64,000 nucleotides of DNA from an uncultured Chlorobiaceae bacterium. Its GTDB lineage: Bacteria > Bacteroidota > Chlorobiia > Chlorobiales > Chlorobiaceae. Below the pieces are notes generated by a model, which was not told the origin of the DNA, ran no database searches, and saw only the letters and a program-made list of their open reading frames with translations. Shown here piece by piece: positions 4,935-25,600 of the stretch (the stretch's first letter is position 1; the number at the start of each line of letters is the position of its first letter). The translations under genes and the position numbers were made by a program. The stretch is taken from assembly GCA_903882665.1 (NCBI GenBank), contig CAIRXW010000045.1, forward strand, positions 1 through 64,000, written 5' to 3'.

Positions 4935-7148
4935 CTATCGGCGCTGGATGTGGTTGATCACCTCCGCAAGCCGGTCGATCTCCTCTTTGGTATTGTAAAA
5001 GGCGAGTGATGGCCGTATGGTACCCTCAACACCGAAGCGTCGTAACGAGGGCTGGGAGCAGTGGTGGCCGGTACGGACAGCAATGCCTTCGCGGTCGAGC
5101 AGTTTGCCGACCTCTTCGTTGGGGAGATTGTTGAGTACAAAGGAGAGGACTCCCACCTTGTTGCGAGCGGTGCCGATCATGCGCAGTCCCGGAATACCCT
5201 TCAGGCGCTCGGTACCGTACTCGGTCAGTTCATGCTCATAGCGGGCGATGTTGTCGAGCCCTATTTTGCGCACATAGTCGAGTGCTGCTCCAAGACCGAT
5301 GGCGTCGCCGATGGAGGGTGTTCCGGCTTCAAATTTTGCCGGTGGCTCGTTGTAGATGGTCTCTTCGAACCGTACGTCCTGGATCATGTTGCCGCCACCT
5401 TGCCATGGGGGCATGAGCTCAAGCAGCTCCCGTTTGCCGTAGACTACGCCGATACCGGTCGGAGCAAAGATTTTATGGCCTGAAAAGACAAAGAAATCGG
5501 CATCGAGATCCTGAACGTTGACCGGGATATGGGCCACCGACTGGGCACCATCGATGAGTACTTTGGCGTCAAACCGCTTGGCCAACTGTATCATCTCTCT
5601 GACCGGAAGAATGGTGCCAAGGCCGTTGGATGCCTGGGTCAGCGAGACAAACTTTGTGCGGGGCCCGAGCAGTTTGGTGTACTCTTCCATGATGATTTCA
5701 CCCCGGTCGTTGACTGGCACAACCTTGATGCGTGCTCCTCTTTCGTGTGCAACCATCTGCCAGGGCACAATATTGGCGTGGTGCTCAAGAATGGAGAGCA
5801 CAATCTCGTCACCTGGCTGAAGGAACTTTCGTCCCCAGGTTTGCGCCACCAGATTAATCCCTTCGGTGGTGCCACGGACATAGATGATCTCTGTTGCGGA
5901 GCCTGCACCGATGAATTGCCGGATTTTCTCGCGGGCCCCTTCGTAGGCGTCGGTTGCGCGGGCGGCAAGGGTGTGTGCACCACGGTGGATGTTGGAGTTG
6001 TCGGTGGCGTAGAAGTGCGCAACGGCGTTGATGACGCTGAGTGGTTTCTGTGTTGTTGCGGCATTGTCGAACCAGACCAGATCTTTGCCGTGAATCTTTT
6101 GGTGCAGTACCGGAAAGTCCTTGCGTATGGTGGCGACGTTAAACCCTTCAGGCTGGTGCAGCGGTGGCTGCGGCTCACGCAGAAAATAGTAGGGCTCTGC
6201 GGGGACTGCGGGCAAACTGAAGGGCAACGGTCTGCTGCCCGGCGTTTGATGAGTTTCGTTTGGCCAGACCGGAGCTGGCGCTTTTCCGGGCAGTTCAGGC
6301 GGAGTAGGCGATGAGAGGTCAGCGGTTTCCGGGAAAGGGAGTTGTGAAACATCTCCTGATTGCAGGTTCGGTATACCGCGAAGGGAGCGAAATACGGCTT
6401 CCAGATCAGGGCTTCCCTGTTCCTGTTCAAACGTTCGGTAGAGCTGTGCGCCGTAGCATTGACCGTCCGCAGGTATGCCAGTCGAATTTGGCCGTTCGGG
6501 AAGCTGCTCCTGCAACTGGTTGGCGGAAAAAGCCTCAGGGGTGACAGCCTTCGGGGTCAGGCTCTGATGGGCAGTTGTTGTCGGTATGGGGTCTTGAGCC
6601 GCAGCATAGAGCAGGTTGAAGGAAAACTCATCTTCAGCAGGAAGACCGCCGTTCAGTGTGTTGAAAAATGGTGCAATGTTTTCAGCGTCATCCGGTTTCG
6701 ACGGCAGTGTACGCTGTATGAACTGGTCGAGTCCGTGTGAGCCATCCTTATTGTCGGAATAGTTCTGCTGTTCGGTCAGTTTATTGGCGTGATGGCCGAG
6801 TGGTTCCGGGTTTTTTTCTGGGGTGGCGGCAAGAAAATAGTAATCATGCTCTGGTTGAGCAGGGACTTCGTCAGAAAACCAGGGGAGAGCGGGGTGCTGG
6901 GGTAATTCTTGTGTCGGGAGATGATTGCCGCTATCCCATCTGCCCGGTTCATCGCCAGGAGATTTTTTATCACTTATGGATGCAGCAAGAGAGGATGGAG
7001 CATCTGCGGCATCGGTTTCATATCTTGGCGCAGTGCCAGCTTCAGGCAGTTCATTGAACAGACGGCTTGCAAGCTGTGCAATGAACACCGGACTGATGAT
7101 ATCACTTCCGATTCCTGGTATGTTTGGTTGCTCATGGTGATTTGGCAT
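4935..7148 (-). CDS. Encapsulin cargo cysteine desulfurase with long disordered N-terminal domain
   Basis: 737 residues. From about 335 it is a complete type II (SufS-like) cysteine desulfurase: VWFDNAATTQKP at 358-369, the PLP Lys559 in FSGHK, the catalytic Cys697 in RTGHHCSQPS, and RPSLAFYNT near the end. It converts L-cysteine to L-alanine and enzyme-bound persulfide. The first 335 residues have no desulfurase counterpart: rich in Pro, Ser, Glu and Gln, they look disordered, with short hydrophobic islands (DIISPVFIAQLASRLFNEL at 17-35) and a repeated Tyr-Tyr-Phe-Leu motif at 103-106 and 320-323. Long unstructured N-terminal domains of this kind load desulfurases into family 2 encapsulins. 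It is the last gene of the cysK-encapsulin-desulfurase operon, 84 bp behind the shell gene. Cargo identity is inference from family knowledge and adjacency. Confidence 0.93.
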   Translation of the reverse strand: MPNHHEQPNIPGIGSDIISPVFIAQLASRLFNELPEAGTAPRYETDAADAPSSLAASISDKKSPGDEPGRWDSGNHLPTQELPQHPALPWFSDEVPAQPEHDYYFLAATPEKNPEPLGHHANKLTEQQNYSDNKDGSHGLDQFIQRTLPSKPDDAENIAPFFNTLNGGLPAEDEFSFNLLYAAAQDPIPTTTAHQSLTPKAVTPEAFSANQLQEQLPERPNSTGIPADGQCYGAQLYRTFEQEQGSPDLEAVFRSLRGIPNLQSGDVSQLPFPETADLSSPTPPELPGKAPAPVWPNETHQTPGSRPLPFSLPAVPAEPYYFLREPQPPLHQPEGFNVATIRKDFPVLHQKIHGKDLVWFDNAATTQKPLSVINAVAHFYATDNSNIHRGAHTLAARATDAYEGAREKIRQFIGAGSATEIIYVRGTTEGINLVAQTWGRKFLQPGDEIVLSILEHHANIVPWQMVAHERGARIKVVPVNDRGEIIMEEYTKLLGPRTKFVSLTQASNGLGTILPVREMIQLAKRFDAKVLIDGAQSVAHIPVNVQDLDADFFVFSGHKIFAPTGIGVVYGKRELLELMPPWQGGGNMIQDVRFEETIYNEPPAKFEAGTPSIGDAIGLGAALDYVRKIGLDNIARYEHELTEYGTERLKGIPGLRMIGTARNKVGVLSFVLNNLPNEEVGKLLDREGIAVRTGHHCSQPSLRRFGVEGTIRPSLAFYNTKEEIDRLAEVINHIQRR

Positions 7149-7232
7149 AAGTACAAGAGTAATCTAAAGAGAGGGCCTCTTCCGTGAAACAGAATCAAGG
7201 GTCTCTCTCTTTAGTAGTTTATTGTCGCTGTT

Positions 7233-8690
7233 CTATTTTGTTTTAGGGGCTGTCTGGCGATTTTCGTAATCGTGATAGTAGCCCACTTCGACATTTTCAA
7301 GGATCGCCAGAGCATCATCGGTCAGGACGGCCAGTGATGAGTAGAGCGTAAGCAGATAGGAGGCGACGCCAAGTTTGTCGAGTCCCATAAGCCTTGCTGA
7401 AAGGCTTGGGCTGATCTCTCCGGGGATTCCGGCCTGATGCAGTCCAACGACACCCTGCTCATTTTCGCCGACACGGACGAGTATAATATTGGTTGTGCCG
7501 TGAGCTGATTTTTTGTTTTTGTTGATTTCAAGCTTGTCGCACGGAACAAGTGGTACGCCACGCCAGGTCAGGACAGGAGTTCCAAAGAGATTGATGGTCG
7601 GTGGAGGAACGCCGCGCCAGGTGCATTCGCGTTCGAAGGCTGCAATGGCTTTTGGGTGAGCGATAAAGAATGCCGGCTTTTTCCACACCTTGGTGAGCAA
7701 ATCGTCAAGGTCATCCGGTGTTGGTGTGCCGTAGCGGGTGCTGATGCGCTGGCCGGGATCGGCAGAATGAAGCAGGCCGAACTCCCGGTTGTTGATGAAT
7801 TCCCACTCCTGACGCTCCTTGATGCCTTCGATCGTCAGGCGCATCTGCTGCTCTATCTGGTTGTAGGGCTCATTGTAGAGGTCAGATACCCTCGTGTGGA
7901 CACGGACAACAGTCTGTATTGCCTGAAGCGAGTACTCTCGGGGTTTGTTGGAGTAATCGACATAGGTTTCCGGGATTTCGACATTTTCAGCGAAACCGGC
8001 AATAAGGTCAATGTGCTTTTCGCCATGTTTGTTGACCGTCGAGCGGATTTTAAGGTACTCTTCGACCGAAGCCTGAAAAGATTCCTTCAGTGACGGGGAT
8101 TCTTTGAAGAGCTTTTCGATATCGACGCTGGAGAGTGAGAAATAGGAACCAGGGGTAATGGTGCGGATGGTGACCGACGATGGCTTGTCGGAGACAAGGT
8201 CTTCTTCACCGAAATATTCACCCTCCGAAAGCAGGGCGATACGAAGATCCTCTCCGTGAAGCCCCTTGCTTAAAATTTCGACCTGGCCGTGAGCAATGAT
8301 AAAGATTTTATGGCGGTCTTCGCCTTCAAGGATCAGGGTGTTGCCAAGCCCGGCCTCTTCAAGCACAAACTTTCTTGCCAGGTTGCTGATGATTTCGTCA
8401 TCAAACGAAGCGAAGAGCGGAATGCTTTTCAGGGATTCCGGCTTGAATGATGCGATGCCTCTATGAAAATCAATGTCGATGCGCTCGGGTTTCTGCAGTT
8501 CGATCTTGGTGCGGTTGACGCGGTAGGTGCCGGATGAGACATGAACCCACGGGAGCAGCTTTAAGAGCCATCTCGGGGTTATGGAGTTCATCTGGGGAGC
8601 GGTTTTGGTTGTATTCGCCAGATTTCTTGCTACAGTGGTGGTTACACTGCGCTGTAATTGACTGTTTGGTTCCTGTTGTGCGTTTGACAT
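7233..8690 (-). CDS. Family 2B encapsulin shell protein with cNMP-binding-like domain
   Basis: 485 residues. The N-terminus has the family 2 extended arm with an SRPI-like LQRSVTTTVARNLANTTK at 12-29 and the helical start of the HK97 fold near 38-60. Residues about 85-215 are an inserted cyclic-nucleotide-binding-type beta roll (PLFASFDDEIISNLA, then GEDRHKIFIIAHGQVEI, EGEYFGEEDLV), which defines subfamily 2B. Residues 225-485 continue the HK97 shell fold (VVRVHTRVSDLYNEPYNQIE, then EWEFINN, GLHQAGIPGEISPSLSARLM). The usual phosphate-cassette Pro-Arg is replaced (DKPSSVTIRT), so nucleotide binding may be lost. The shell should self-assemble and enclose the neighbouring desulfurase. Known family 2 systems store elemental sulfur; that role here is inferred. 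Confidence 0.93.
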   Translation of the reverse strand: MSNAQQEPNSQLQRSVTTTVARNLANTTKTAPQMNSITPRWLLKLLPWVHVSSGTYRVNRTKIELQKPERIDIDFHRGIASFKPESLKSIPLFASFDDEIISNLARKFVLEEAGLGNTLILEGEDRHKIFIIAHGQVEILSKGLHGEDLRIALLSEGEYFGEEDLVSDKPSSVTIRTITPGSYFSLSSVDIEKLFKESPSLKESFQASVEEYLKIRSTVNKHGEKHIDLIAGFAENVEIPETYVDYSNKPREYSLQAIQTVVRVHTRVSDLYNEPYNQIEQQMRLTIEGIKERQEWEFINNREFGLLHSADPGQRISTRYGTPTPDDLDDLLTKVWKKPAFFIAHPKAIAAFERECTWRGVPPPTINLFGTPVLTWRGVPLVPCDKLEINKNKKSAHGTTNIILVRVGENEQGVVGLHQAGIPGEISPSLSARLMGLDKLGVASYLLTLYSSLAVLTDDALAILENVEVGYYHDYENRQTAPKTK

Positions 8691-8756: not shown

Positions 8757-9710
8757 TTAAATAATGACGGATTCATTTTCAAACTGGTAGAGGAGTGTCG
8801 AAAGATATCGCTCTCCGGTATCAGGCAGAATGACGACAATTCGTTTTCCCTTGTTCTCTTCGCGTTGAGCCAGTTGCAGGGCAGCGTAAACGGCGGCACC
8901 TGACGATATGCCGACAATAAGTCCTTCAGTTCTGGCAAGCTCACGACCGGTGCGCAGGGCATCTTCGTTTTTGACCGGGAAAATTTCATCAATAACCTCT
9001 TTGTTCAGGATATCGGGGAGAAACCCGGCGCCAATACCTTGTATTTTGTGTGGACCTGGTTTGCCGCCAGCAATAACCTGTGAGTCGAACGGCTCAACAG
9101 CGACAATTTTAATTTCAGGATTTCGCTGTTTGAGCACCTCTCCCACACCGGTAATGGTGCCGCCGGTTCCAACGCCGCTGACAAAAATATCGACGTTACC
9201 ATCGGTATCGTTCCATATCTCCAGGGCGGTTGTTGTTCGGTGAATTTCAGGATTTGCCGGGTTTTTGAACTGCTGCGGAATAAAGGAGTTCGGAAATTTT
9301 TCGTGCAGTTCATTGGCTTTTTTGATTGCGCCAAGCATTCCTTCTGATCCGGGCGTCAGAACCAGTTCGGCACCGAGAGCTTTGAGGAGGTTTCTGCGTT
9401 CAATACTCATCGTTTCAGGCATGGCAAGGATCAGGCGGTACCCTTTGGCAGCGGCAATAAAGGCCAGGGCAATGCCGGTATTGCCGCTTGTCGGCTCGAT
9501 GATGACACTCTCCTTGTTGATGAATCCCTGCTTTTCAGCATCTTCGATCATTGAAAAACCGATGCGATCCTTGACGCTGCCTCCGGGGTTGAAGTATTCG
9601 AGTTTGGCAATAATCGTTGCCTCGGCCTCATGTTCCCGACTGAAATTTCCCAGTTCAAGAAGAGGGGTGTTGCCGATAAGATCGGTCAACTTTTTTGCAA
9701 TACGTCCCAT
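8757..9710 (-). CDS. cysK: O-acetylserine sulfhydrylase (cysteine synthase)
   Basis: Makes L-cysteine from O-acetylserine and sulfide with PLP. The 317-residue length and motifs are classical: [10 protein letters not shown] with the PLP Lys47, the substrate-binding [13 protein letters not shown], the phosphate loop [11 protein letters not shown], and the C-terminal [12 protein letters not shown]. It is the promoter-proximal gene of a minus-strand run followed 66 bp later by the encapsulin and then the desulfurase. This links cysteine synthesis to cysteine desulfuration: sulfide could be fixed into cysteine and its sulfur deposited inside the shell. The ATG at 9710 gives the standard N-terminus ([16 protein letters not shown] at 9-24). 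Confidence 0.95.
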
Positions 9711-10061
9711 GTCTGGTGATTTTTAATAGGGATGTTGAAAATCTCTCAGTCACAATTGTTAATGATTTAATGGTGAACGGTATTGTTTTTATTTGGCATT
9801 TCCTAATCATTTTTTTTCTGATCGAGCCCGTCACTTTTACCTTATTTCCCTCATTTGCCTCTCACTTGCGCCGCTATCAGCGTATAAAAAAATATCTTTG
9901 TAAAGTGGGCAAAGAATGGTAGATTTTCGCCGGATTGACTGGTGAGTCTGAACGATTTGCATTTGCTTCGTTTCAATGCAGACAAGCGTCCCTGACCAGG
10001 TATTGAAAAAAGACCATAAGTTCGATGCCTCCCCTTTCTGTCTTGATATCAATGCCGGGTT
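9711..10061. other. Divergent promoter region, cysK / NRAMP-like transporter
   Basis: 350 bp between divergent operons, A+T-rich near cysK. No open frame here has a credible start or motif. It must hold promoters for both operons and the leader of the transporter mRNA. I looked for a known Mg2+ or Mn2+ riboswitch and recognised none. Confidence 0.4.
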
Positions 10062-11354
10062 TTGTCAACGTCCAACTCAACGGATATGGATTTTTTTTCC
10101 GTTCTCTACTACCGGTTCAAAAAAGTCTGGAAAGCCGTCCGCCTTTACCTTGTTATAGCAGGCCCTGGCCTTGTGGTGATGATCGCCGACAATGATGCTG
10201 GCGGTATTACAACTTATGCCGCTACGGGTGCCAAATACGGGTATCATCTGATATGGTTTTTGCTTCTTCTCATTCCAGTGGCCTATTATGTACAGGAGAT
10301 GACGGTGAGACTCGGAGCGGTGACCAAACGTGGACATGCCGAGGCAATTTTTGAAAGTTTCGGGGCTTTCTGGGGGTGGTTTTCACTGCTTGATCTCATG
10401 ATCGTTGACTGGCTGACGCTGGTTACTGAATTTGTGGGGATGACGGCAGCGCTCGGTATTTTTGGAGTTCCTGCCTGGTTGACCGTGATCGTCGTAGTTC
10501 TGCTCATGAGCATTATTGTGCTGAACGGGCGTTACTGGACATGGGAAAAGATTGCACTTGGATTCTGTCTGCTGAACCTGATCTATATTCCTGCGGCATT
10601 CATGGTTAACCCTTCACTTTCTGACATAGCCGGTCAGGGGCTTATTCCCAATCTTCCCGGCGGTCTTACCAATGAGCTTTTTTTTCTGCTCATGGCCAAT
10701 ATCGGCACCACCATTGCGCCGTGGATGCTCTTTTTCCAGCAAAGTTCAGTTGTTGACAAGGGATTGCAGGAAAAAGATATCAAGATGGGGAAGCTTGATA
10801 CGTTTATCGGCTCGATCATTACGGTTTCGATTGCGATTTTCATTGTGATTGTAACAGGAACCCTGTTGCATGGAACACCAATCGATGATGCCGCCACCGC
10901 AGCCAAGCTGTTGATGAAAACGAACCACTATGTTGGTGCTTTCATGGCCATAGGGCTTTTTGATGCCGGTCTGCTTGGGGCCATCTGCATATCGCTGGCA
11001 AGTTCCTGGGCCTTTGGTGAAATTTTTGGATGGGCCCACTCCCTGAATACCAAGGTGAAGGAAGCTCCCTGGTTTTATATCTCCTTTTTCATTACCCTGG
11101 CGACTGCCGGCGTTGTTCCCCTGATACCGGGCGCCCCGCTTGTGCTCATTACGCTTTTTGTCCAGGTTATTGCGGTCACGCTTTTGCCTGCAGCGCTGGT
11201 CTTTCTGATACTTTTGCTCAACGACAAAAAGACGATGGGGGAGTATGCCAATACCCGGTTGCAGAATATTGTCAGCACCATTATTGTTGTCTCAATTATC
11301 ATACTCTCAACCATGTACGGAGTCAGTGCACTTTTCCCAAATCTTTTCCAGTAA
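10062..11354 (+). CDS. NRAMP-related divalent metal transporter with altered metal site
   Basis: 430 residues from a TTG start, or 422 from the ATG at 10086; the choice is open. An integral membrane protein with about eleven hydrophobic segments and the SLC11/NRAMP architecture. Two binding-site helices depart from Mn/Fe transporters: TM1 reads NDAGG where canonical NRAMPs have DPGN, and TM6 reads APWM where they have MPHN. The TM1 Asp is kept, while the Asn and the metal-binding Met are lost. Loss of the sulfur ligand is the hallmark of NRAMP-related Mg2+ transporters (NRMTs), so Mg2+ is the best guess. Two genes follow at once: a one-helix peptide and an MgtE_N/CBS protein, consistent with magnesium. 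Substrate is inference; the transporter class is firm. Confidence 0.85.
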   Translation: MSTSNSTDMDFFSVLYYRFKKVWKAVRLYLVIAGPGLVVMIADNDAGGITTYAATGAKYGYHLIWFLLLLIPVAYYVQEMTVRLGAVTKRGHAEAIFESFGAFWGWFSLLDLMIVDWLTLVTEFVGMTAALGIFGVPAWLTVIVVVLLMSIIVLNGRYWTWEKIALGFCLLNLIYIPAAFMVNPSLSDIAGQGLIPNLPGGLTNELFFLLMANIGTTIAPWMLFFQQSSVVDKGLQEKDIKMGKLDTFIGSIITVSIAIFIVIVTGTLLHGTPIDDAATAAKLLMKTNHYVGAFMAIGLFDAGLLGAICISLASSWAFGEIFGWAHSLNTKVKEAPWFYISFFITLATAGVVPLIPGAPLVLITLFVQVIAVTLLPAALVFLILLLNDKKTMGEYANTRLQNIVSTIIVVSIIILSTMYGVSALFPNLFQ

Positions 11355-11366
11355 AGGTGTCAGGCC

Positions 11367-11543
11367 ATGAGGACAATCAACCAGTTTATCAACAAGATCC
11401 GTGAGATCAACCTGCGCTATGCCAAGCCAAAAGTCGAAATGTCGCGGGCGGTCAAAATCTCTTTGGCGGTACTCCGGGTTTATCTGTTTCTTCTGGTGGT
11501 GCTGATGATCTATAAATTCATAACGGTTATGAATGTTTTATAA
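11367..11543 (+). CDS. 58-residue single-helix membrane protein
   Basis: A 58-residue frame 12 bp after the transporter stop codon and 15 bp before the MgtE_N/CBS gene, all on one strand. The first 30 residues are basic and amphipathic (INKIREINLRYAKPKVEM), then one hydrophobic helix (ISLAVLRVYLFLLVVLMIY, 31-49) and a short tail. The topology and position suggest an accessory subunit of the transporter or a tether between it and the soluble partner. I recognise no family. Tight spacing and the clean fit of one helix support that it is real. Confidence 0.7.
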   Translation: MRTINQFINKIREINLRYAKPKVEMSRAVKISLAVLRVYLFLLVVLMIYKFITVMNVL

Positions 11544-11558
11544 AAAGGGAGACGATGA

Positions 11559-12809
11559 ATGGTTACTGTACTGGATCGTGAATTTTTTCTGAGCGAAATT
11601 GTTGGTCGCCGGATCTATCTCAAATCGAACTCAATCGGCAAGCTTAAAGATCTTGTTATTCAGGAGAATGCTGGCAAAATTCCTGAAGTAACCCACTTGC
11701 TTGTTCATCGCCCTTACGGTGATTCCCGCCTTTTGATTCCCTGGGAGAAAATCACCCTGATTTCAAATACGGAGATTGTTTCGGAAATTACCAGCACCGA
11801 AGGGTACGAACTTGACCCTCTCAATAACCACATTTTTCTGAAAGACTATATCCTCGACAAGAAAATTCTTGACATGGATGACCATGAAATTGAGGTGGTC
11901 TACGACGTAAAGCTTCTCTTTCAGAATGAACGGCTTTTTGTCAGCGAAGTGGATTTCAACCGTTTTCGCATTCTCCGCAGGATGGGCTTTAAAAAGCTTG
12001 CCAACTATCTTGCCCGATACAAGGAGGGCTCCAGCATTTCATGGCTCTATGTTCAGCCGCTGCCCGAAACCATTGGAAGCTTTGAGGGTAATGTGAAGCT
12101 CAATGTGCTCAAGGAAAATATCAATGACATCCATCCTGTTGATCTTGCCGATATTCTTGAAGAGCTGGAAGGGAATCAACGCCTGGCGGTCTTCAACGAG
12201 ATTGAACCGGAACTTGCCTCAGACACCCTCGAAGAGGTTGAGCCAAGGGTGCAGCGGGAACTGATTCGCTCCATGGAAAAAGTGCGGGCTGCCGGATTGA
12301 TCAACGAAATGAGCCCTGCACAGGTTGCCGGAATACTTTCAATACTGCCGGCTTCTGATGCCGATGAGATTATCGAATTTGTCGATAGTGAAAATAAGCA
12401 GAGGGTACAGCAGATCATCGACCAGCATGATGAAAACATTATGCTCTACTCTACCCAGAAGGTGATCAAACGGCCTGTCGAGACCATTGTCAAGGATGTC
12501 ATAGGCAATTATCGTGCGGTTGCCTGTGATATGGATGTTATCATGTATGTCTATGTCGTCGATACCCAGAATACTCTTCAGGGTGTTGTCGATATCAGGG
12601 AGCTGATTGAGGCTGACCCGGAGCAGACACTTGGTGAAATTATGACTGACAGTCTGATCACGCTGAACCCGGATGATACGCTTCATGATGCTGTTGACAT
12701 GTTTTTCCGTTACTCCTTCCGGGCAATCCCGATCACTGATGACAATGATTATCTGCTCGGTGTTGTCTCTTTTCATGATATCAAGGGAATCAAGCCCCGT
12801 CTGGATTAA
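11559..12809 (+). CDS. Soluble PRC-barrel / MgtE N-domain / CBS-pair protein
   Basis: 416 residues without a membrane segment. Residues 1-135 look like two PRC-barrel-type beta units (SNSIGKLKDLVIQ, then HEIEVVYDVKLLF). Residues about 188-290 are an MgtE N-terminal superhelical domain (DIHPVDLADILEELEG, then MSPAQVAGILSILPASDADEII). Residues 295-412 are a CBS pair (LGEIMTDSLITLNPDDTLHDAV, then FRAIPITDDNDYLLGVV). In MgtE these two modules sense Mg2+ and gate the fused channel; here the channel is missing and an NRAMP-like transporter lies just upstream. I infer a detached regulatory subunit. An AGGGAG box seven bases upstream fixes the ATG at 11559. Confidence 0.88.
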   Translation: MVTVLDREFFLSEIVGRRIYLKSNSIGKLKDLVIQENAGKIPEVTHLLVHRPYGDSRLLIPWEKITLISNTEIVSEITSTEGYELDPLNNHIFLKDYILDKKILDMDDHEIEVVYDVKLLFQNERLFVSEVDFNRFRILRRMGFKKLANYLARYKEGSSISWLYVQPLPETIGSFEGNVKLNVLKENINDIHPVDLADILEELEGNQRLAVFNEIEPELASDTLEEVEPRVQRELIRSMEKVRAAGLINEMSPAQVAGILSILPASDADEIIEFVDSENKQRVQQIIDQHDENIMLYSTQKVIKRPVETIVKDVIGNYRAVACDMDVIMYVYVVDTQNTLQGVVDIRELIEADPEQTLGEIMTDSLITLNPDDTLHDAVDMFFRYSFRAIPITDDNDYLLGVVSFHDIKGIKPRLD

Positions 12810-12851: not shown

Positions 12852-13248
12852 ATGGGTCGTGCACTCCGGGCGGTAGCTTTACTTGAAGCCTGCAAAAAAC
12901 ATTCCAAAGATCTTTATAGAGGCATCCCGCAACCTGACGGATGCCCGTCTCCTGCTTCTGGCATTCTTTGCATGTTTATACTCCTCCATGCGGTTTGTTG
13001 AGGCTTATGGACTATGGTTCGCAAGGCGATGGGCGGAATGGTTTGCATTGTTAAGCGGATCAGTTTATTTGCCGGTTGAACTGTACGAGCTTGTAAAAGG
13101 TGTTACCTGGATCAAAATTGTGTTTATCTTGGTTAACTTTACTGTTGTGCTTTACATGGCCGTTATGCTCAAACGAAATGGAAAAAGGCATGCCGATAAT
13201 AAAACCGCTATCGGTGCCAATGGAGCTGACCGCCATGCAGGGAGTTAG
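12852..13248 (+). pseudogene. DUF2127 membrane protein gene, internally deleted and frameshifted
   Basis: From the ATG at 12852 the frame reads MGRALRAVALLEACK, the typical DUF2127 start, then runs into a wrong frame and stops near 12998. The other frame, open from 12877 to 13248, carries the remaining two thirds of the family: LTDARLLLLAFFACLYS, then RFVEAYGLWFARRWAEWFA, LSGSVYLPVELYEL and a last hydrophobic helix. The first transmembrane segment and the loop expected between the two parts (roughly 35 residues) are missing at the joint near 12893-12905. I read this as an internal deletion that also shifted the frame. A shortened protein from the TTG at 12883 is possible but would lack the first helix. 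Confidence 0.65.
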
Positions 13249-25490: not shown

Positions 25491-25600
25491 CTGTCATCGA
25501 GAAAGGTGGAGGGACTGGCCCTGAGAAGCCTTGGCAACCGTCATTACCACAATGAGCGGTGCCAATTCCATCCCGGAATAATGGCCGGGAATGATGATGG
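25491..25600 (+). ncRNA. SAM-I riboswitch in the metX leader
   Basis: The conserved SAM-I core is easily read: GAGAAAGGTGGAGGGACTGG (25499-25518), the bases CCCTGAGAAGCCTTGGCAACC right after it, and the distal GGTGCCAATTCC at 25558-25569. The closing P1 helix forms between 25491-25498 (CTGTCATC) and 25593-25600 (GATGATGG), eight pairs including two G-U. Binding of S-adenosylmethionine to this class normally turns off downstream methionine genes; the next gene is metX. The aptamer lies 240 bp before the metX start. A possible expression-platform hairpin (GTTACC near 25671, GGTAAC near 25692) lies between, but no clean T-run terminator was found, so the mode of control is open. Confidence 0.9.

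Follow-up and report, generated by a model that had tools for sequence, protein, structure and literature searches.

Organization of the locus

The window, that is, the whole stretch of 64,000 nucleotides analysed here, derives from a Chlorobium-like genome. An ORF check of this stretch identified three genes arranged head to tail on the plus strand: a gene for an NRMT-type SLC11 transporter (10086..11354), a small ORF encoding a protein of 58 aa (11367..11543) and a gene for a soluble protein of 416 aa that combines PRC-barrel, MgtE_N and CBS domains (11559..12809), hereafter called the sensor. Because the intergenic gaps measure 12 and 15 bases, we regard the three genes as a single operon. 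Hydropathy analysis predicted 11 membrane segments for the transporter, one for the small protein and none for the sensor.

The transporter frame is readable from a TTG at 10062 to position 11354, with an alternative ATG at 10086. The ATG is probably the true start, since homology to the proteins of Proteobacteria begins around residue 9. Upstream of the operon, an alignment of Chlorobiaceae sequences pointed to a predicted promoter-like pair on the plus strand (TTTGTA - 17 - TAGATT, 9897..9925), which relatives have in common in the form TTTGTA-17-TAAATT. A search of the window operon found neither an M-box nor any other Rfam family, and the M-box was also not found in 11 related loci; among NRMTs, this riboswitch precedes the genes of some members only.

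A gene for a DUF2127 membrane protein (12883-13248) lies directly 3' of the operon and was considered as a further part of the system. It is present in only 7 of the 80 nearest loci, all from near relatives, and is probably unrelated to it. Other features of the window were recorded on their own account. The region 4935-8690 encodes a 737-aa protein with a SufS-like cysteine desulfurase end and a long, probably disordered N-terminal part; it is a probable encapsulin cargo and adjoins a type 2A encapsulin shell (7233-8690) that is SrpI-like and contains a cyclic-nucleotide-binding domain. A gene of the PALP family (cysteine-synthase-like, 8757-9710) is located near the encapsulin, and a SAM-I (S-box) riboswitch scoring 86.6 bits is found at 25491-25600 on the plus strand.

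The transporter and its MgtE-like neighbour

The transporter belongs to the SLC11/Nramp family (PF01566, 260 bits against a cut-off of 29.8). Its metal-site motifs are DAGG in helix 1 and TTIA, within GTTIAPWM, in helix 6, which corresponds to DxxG-TxxA, the NRMT signature described by Ramanadane et al. 2022 (PMC8806188). Among relatives of solved structure, the best match is EleNRMT (7qia, E 6e-67, versus 4e-18 for MntH), with identical motif letters. EleNRMT carries out an uncoupled, proton-free transport of Mg2+ and Mn2+ and has an affinity of about 100 uM for Mn2+ and about 400 uM for Mg2+, Mn2+ being bound more tightly. These data agree with the preliminary description, in which the protein had been taken for an NRAMP-related transporter of the Mg2+ type. 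The loss of the Met and Asn ligands proposed there also holds, as judged from DAGG and TTIA; one correction is that the Met of APWM is a different residue from the ligand Met, lying three residues past the ligand position, which is occupied by Ala.

Two further genes of the NRAMP family are present in the same genome, one of the MntH type (DPGN/ALVM) and one of a distant type (DPSG/TTIS). The NRAMP-like type with DPSG and GTTISPYLF occurs in several Chlorobium genomes (L120, L119, L123, L124, L125; contig C3 in the genome of the window) and is neither MntH nor NRMT. A divergent branch (L136, L137) has the metal site ENDGPSM / GATVTPWM and a separate small helix gene, with no adjacent sensor.

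The sensor shows Pfam matches to PRC, MgtE_N and CBS, and neither a match to the channel domain PF01769 nor a hydrophobic segment, so that the channel-less sensor proposed at the outset is indeed encoded here. It matches the cytosolic domain of Thermus thermophilus MgtE (2yvy) in PDB sequence (E 9.5e-24) and in fold (Foldseek E 1.3e-18 for an AF2 model of pLDDT 76). It ends nine residues past the D247 equivalent, so that the plug helix, which carries E258 and D259 in MgtE, is absent. We compared the cytosolic Mg2+ ligands of MgtE as listed in PMC5882242: at E59, D91, D95, D226 and D247, the window sensor has D, A, G, S and D. The E59 position (D222 in the window) is acidic in 30 of 34 relatives and D247, retained as D407, is kept in 29 of them. 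The D95 position, Gly in the window, is Asp in 25/34 and acidic in 26/34, whereas D91 is lost in all 34 and D226 in most. The sensor shares with MgtE (2yvy, 2yvx) the MgtE_N and CBS domains, the fold, D247 and an acidic residue at the E59 position, but it differs by the missing channel and plug helix, the added N-terminal PRC-barrel and the loss of D91 and D226, to which D95 is added in the window. Sensing of Mg2+ may have been altered, or the ligand may be a nucleotide. Because several Mg2+ ligands have been lost along with the plug helix, its role in gating is one that we infer.

The association with a transporter other than MgtE, also proposed initially, is conserved: the sensor adjoins in every one of the 80 nearest loci with sufficient contig. 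In more distant operons the order is either transporter-small gene-sensor, as in the window (L131, L132, L182 and plasmid pPSV, L191), or transporter-sensor-small gene (L114, L115, L183), and four loci have the transporter and the small gene without an adjacent sensor (L136, L137, L192, L197). The pairing as such is already published. According to Shin et al. 2014 (PMC4072509), an MgtE-N-like gene adjoins most NrmT genes, and feedback control was suggested. It is also reported there that the NrmT transporters of Clostridium acetobutylicum rescue Mg2+ uptake without need for the neighbour, and that NrmT of Acidobacterium capsulatum, which has an MgtE-like neighbour, is mainly a Mn2+ transporter, with full rescue for Mn2+ and poor rescue for Mg2+; co-expression of the neighbour had no effect. 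The main text of that paper mentions neither a one-helix gene nor PRC, and the "small protein" it refers to is the MgtE-like gene.

A conserved one-helix protein and its fused counterpart

The small protein has one hydrophobic segment (residues 31-49) and is predicted to be oriented N-in. Its consensus (alignment A2) reads KIxxINxRYxxPxIxMSxxVxxxLxxLRxYLxxLVxLxxYKF. The gene lies directly downstream of the transporter gene in 80/80 nearest loci, from Chlorobiaceae and several classes of Proteobacteria, with transporters 74-99% identical to that of the window, and it is under purifying selection (median pairwise dN/dS 0.13). These two results rule out a chance ORF and bear out the one-helix protein that had been noticed behind the transporter. 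In the Bacteroidota sample, where a window-type transporter was defined by an E below 1e-170 and the small protein by a clear hit, the genomes with one were the genomes with the other (33/33). Twenty Chlorobium genomes without the small protein have other NRAMP types or none, with the exception of a contig-edge fragment in G079, and in G114 both genes are present in two copies. No family was found for the small protein in Pfam or NCBIfam; its profile gave no match in the PDB and a single marginal one in PHROG (E 0.011). The gene is often missing from annotation, and on the Citrobacter plasmid pPSV it is present but unannotated.

The related transporter of Actinomycetota, Bacillota and many Pseudomonadota has two additional hydrophobic segments, the last of which carries the same motif (LRxYL ... 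K). An hhalign comparison of the small-protein family with these fused tails gave a probability of 95.1% (E 3.2e-8, 36 gapless columns). All 10 tails tested scored 10.7-22.3 bits against the small-protein HMM; with the same HMM, 2000 shuffles reached at most 10.3, the second-highest score being 7.2, and 1005 windows taken elsewhere in these transporters reached at most 5.9. On this sequence evidence, which exceeds the controls, the small protein is homologous to the C-terminal helix of the fused NRMTs. The topology points the same way. The 11-helix protein starts inside and ends outside; fusing an N-in helix to it therefore needs exactly one connecting helix, and exactly one appears to be present, as judged from hydropathy and charge. 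Fusion of the small protein to the sensor was not seen in the examined loci. For a fused NRMT, the model obtained with AF2 (pLDDT 46) was too poor to locate the packing of the helix.

A maximum-likelihood tree was built from 51 transporters. Its 31 helix-bearing members (17 with a separate and 14 with a fused helix) form one clade (support 96/90), within which the fused proteins group firmly (100/100) and those with a separate helix weakly (81/53). The classic NRMTs group with EleNRMT (98/91), and EleNRMT is not sister to the window clade in this tree; deep placements are uncertain owing to the long branches of MntH and EleNRMT. The simplest reading would be that the helix arose once and that a single fusion or fission followed. 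In the classic loci examined, the sensor gene lies upstream of the transporter gene and no helix gene was found within 900 bases; EleNRMT was placed in this group from its protein sequence. As far as the loci and sequences examined show, classic NRMTs, EleNRMT included, have no helix, so that the helix should be dispensable for NRMT transport in general.

The system of the window thus shares with NrmT/NRMT (C. acetobutylicum CA_C0685, EleNRMT) the DxxG-TxxA signature, the Nramp fold family and an adjacent soluble gene resembling the cytosolic domain of MgtE, but differs by the one-helix gene or fused C-terminal helix of its clade, by the order transporter-helix-sensor and by the absence of an M-box at the window. 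Single-helix small proteins are known to modulate transporters, for example MgtS acting on MgtA, and KdpF. The resemblance is that a short protein of one helix is encoded together with an ion transporter or acts on it, a likeness in which we claim no sequence relation; unlike them, the small protein has a homologous counterpart fused within its own transporter family. No description of this conserved and sometimes fused helix was met in the literature searched, and it appears to be new.

Substrate and possible role of the operon

Within the genus Chlorobium, we compared 25 genomes that contain the operon with 19 that do not. The MgtE channel domain is missing from 8/25 of the former and 1/19 of the latter, and CorA from 14/25 and 1/19, respectively. 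One or the other is missing from 18/25 versus 2/19 (Fisher p 5.6e-5, with shared ancestry ignored). Both are missing from four genomes, all operon-bearing, one of which (G137) has an MgtA pump. In the remaining three (G090, G173, G197; 98-100% complete), MgtE, CorA and MgtA all fall below the cut-off, the P-type ATPases score far under that for MgtA and no other recognised Mg2+ importer was found. These three bacteria make bacteriochlorophyll and therefore need Mg2+. Both the loss pattern and the importer-less genomes lend indirect support to Mg2+ import by the operon. Further afield, an M-box riboswitch (148 bits, L195:1488-1660) is present on a plasmid of Mycolicibacterium aubagnense, about 0.9 kb upstream of a sensor and fused-NRMT pair, and in this gene group mgtC is the next gene but one, further downstream. 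An MgtA-like P-type ATPase gene was also observed in another genome (G010, contig C2:39499-44362), where it precedes the NRMT gene by about 1 kb. Conjugative plasmids of Citrobacter freundii (L191:5220-5450) and Serratia marcescens (L203) carry the window-type NRMT operon, with a transporter 78% identical, next to genes for a heavy-metal P-type ATPase and an ArsR-type regulator and to transposases.

We consider it reasonably probable that the operon encodes a three-part system for the import of divalent metal, made of an NRMT, a bound helix subunit and a detached cytosolic gate. The 11-helix NRMT would import Mg2+, and probably also Mn2+, without proton coupling, like EleNRMT. The 58-residue protein would be a dedicated subunit, its single N-in helix packing on the transporter and corresponding to the extra helix at the C-terminus of the sister-clade proteins. 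The PRC/MgtE_N/CBS protein would read cytosolic Mg2+ and/or a nucleotide and brake import in the replete cell. It would dock on the transporter, on the small protein or on both; in the small protein, the conserved cytosolic segment KIxxINxRYxxPxIxMS is a likely docking place.

The nature of the metal may be questioned. Import of Mn2+ or another transition metal, with an MgtE-like partner responding to that metal, would fit the complementation by A. capsulatum NrmT reported by Shin et al., the tighter binding of Mn2+ by EleNRMT and the neighbours of the enterobacterial plasmid copies. It accounts poorly for the loss of MgtE and CorA mainly in operon-bearing genomes, three of them near-complete and devoid of another recognised Mg2+ importer, for the M-box upstream of a related operon and for the MntH-type NRAMP that the genome of the window already possesses, and we regard it as unlikely. 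The possibility that the sensor acts apart from the transporter, for example as a metal buffer, as a chaperone or in nucleotide sensing, deserves slightly more weight, though it too seems rather improbable. The sole co-expression experiment, with the A. capsulatum pair in the same study, gave no effect; the sensor has lost half of the Mg2+ ligands of MgtE and has no plug helix for signal transfer, and the CBS domains of MgtE bind ATP (PMC5529423). Against this stand the conserved adjacency of the sensor gene, upstream or downstream, in every arrangement in which it occurs and the persistence among the relatives of D247 and of acidic residues at the E59 and D95 positions.

It is very unlikely that the one-helix protein serves as a membrane anchor of the sensor rather than as a transporter subunit. 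Its gene does sit between those of the transporter and the sensor, and its cytosolic segment, which includes the IN-R motif, is most pronounced in sensor-containing operons; yet the gene is kept in the four loci without an adjacent sensor, the fusions found are to the transporter, and classic NRMT operons have a sensor without any helix. The preliminary description had seen in the small protein a possible link to the sensor. It was right that this is a real component, but it is probably first of all a part of the transporter and not only a link, because its helix is fused to the transporter C-terminus in the sister clade and its gene is retained in sensor-less operons. Comparisons of genes and genomes thus make the small protein a probable missing part of the transporter within the three-part import system.

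More generally, and with less confidence, we propose that a whole branch of the SLC11/NRAMP superfamily possesses a dedicated auxiliary helix of single origin, either a separate subunit of 50-70 residues or a fused C-terminal domain, that links the transporter with a detachable gate of the MgtE type. If true, a stoichiometric subunit would be known for an SLC11 transporter for the first time, judging by the literature searched, and the Mg2+ feedback of MgtE would exist in a modular version acting on a transporter of unrelated fold. NRMTs have so far been studied alone, and in the clade of the window such pieces may lack a subunit. Should the helix be a true subunit, assays of transport or regulation made without it would be incomplete, and the question raised by Shin et al. 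on the role of the MgtE-like gene would become testable with the right third component. The sensor module would then be detachable from one transporter fold and reusable on another.
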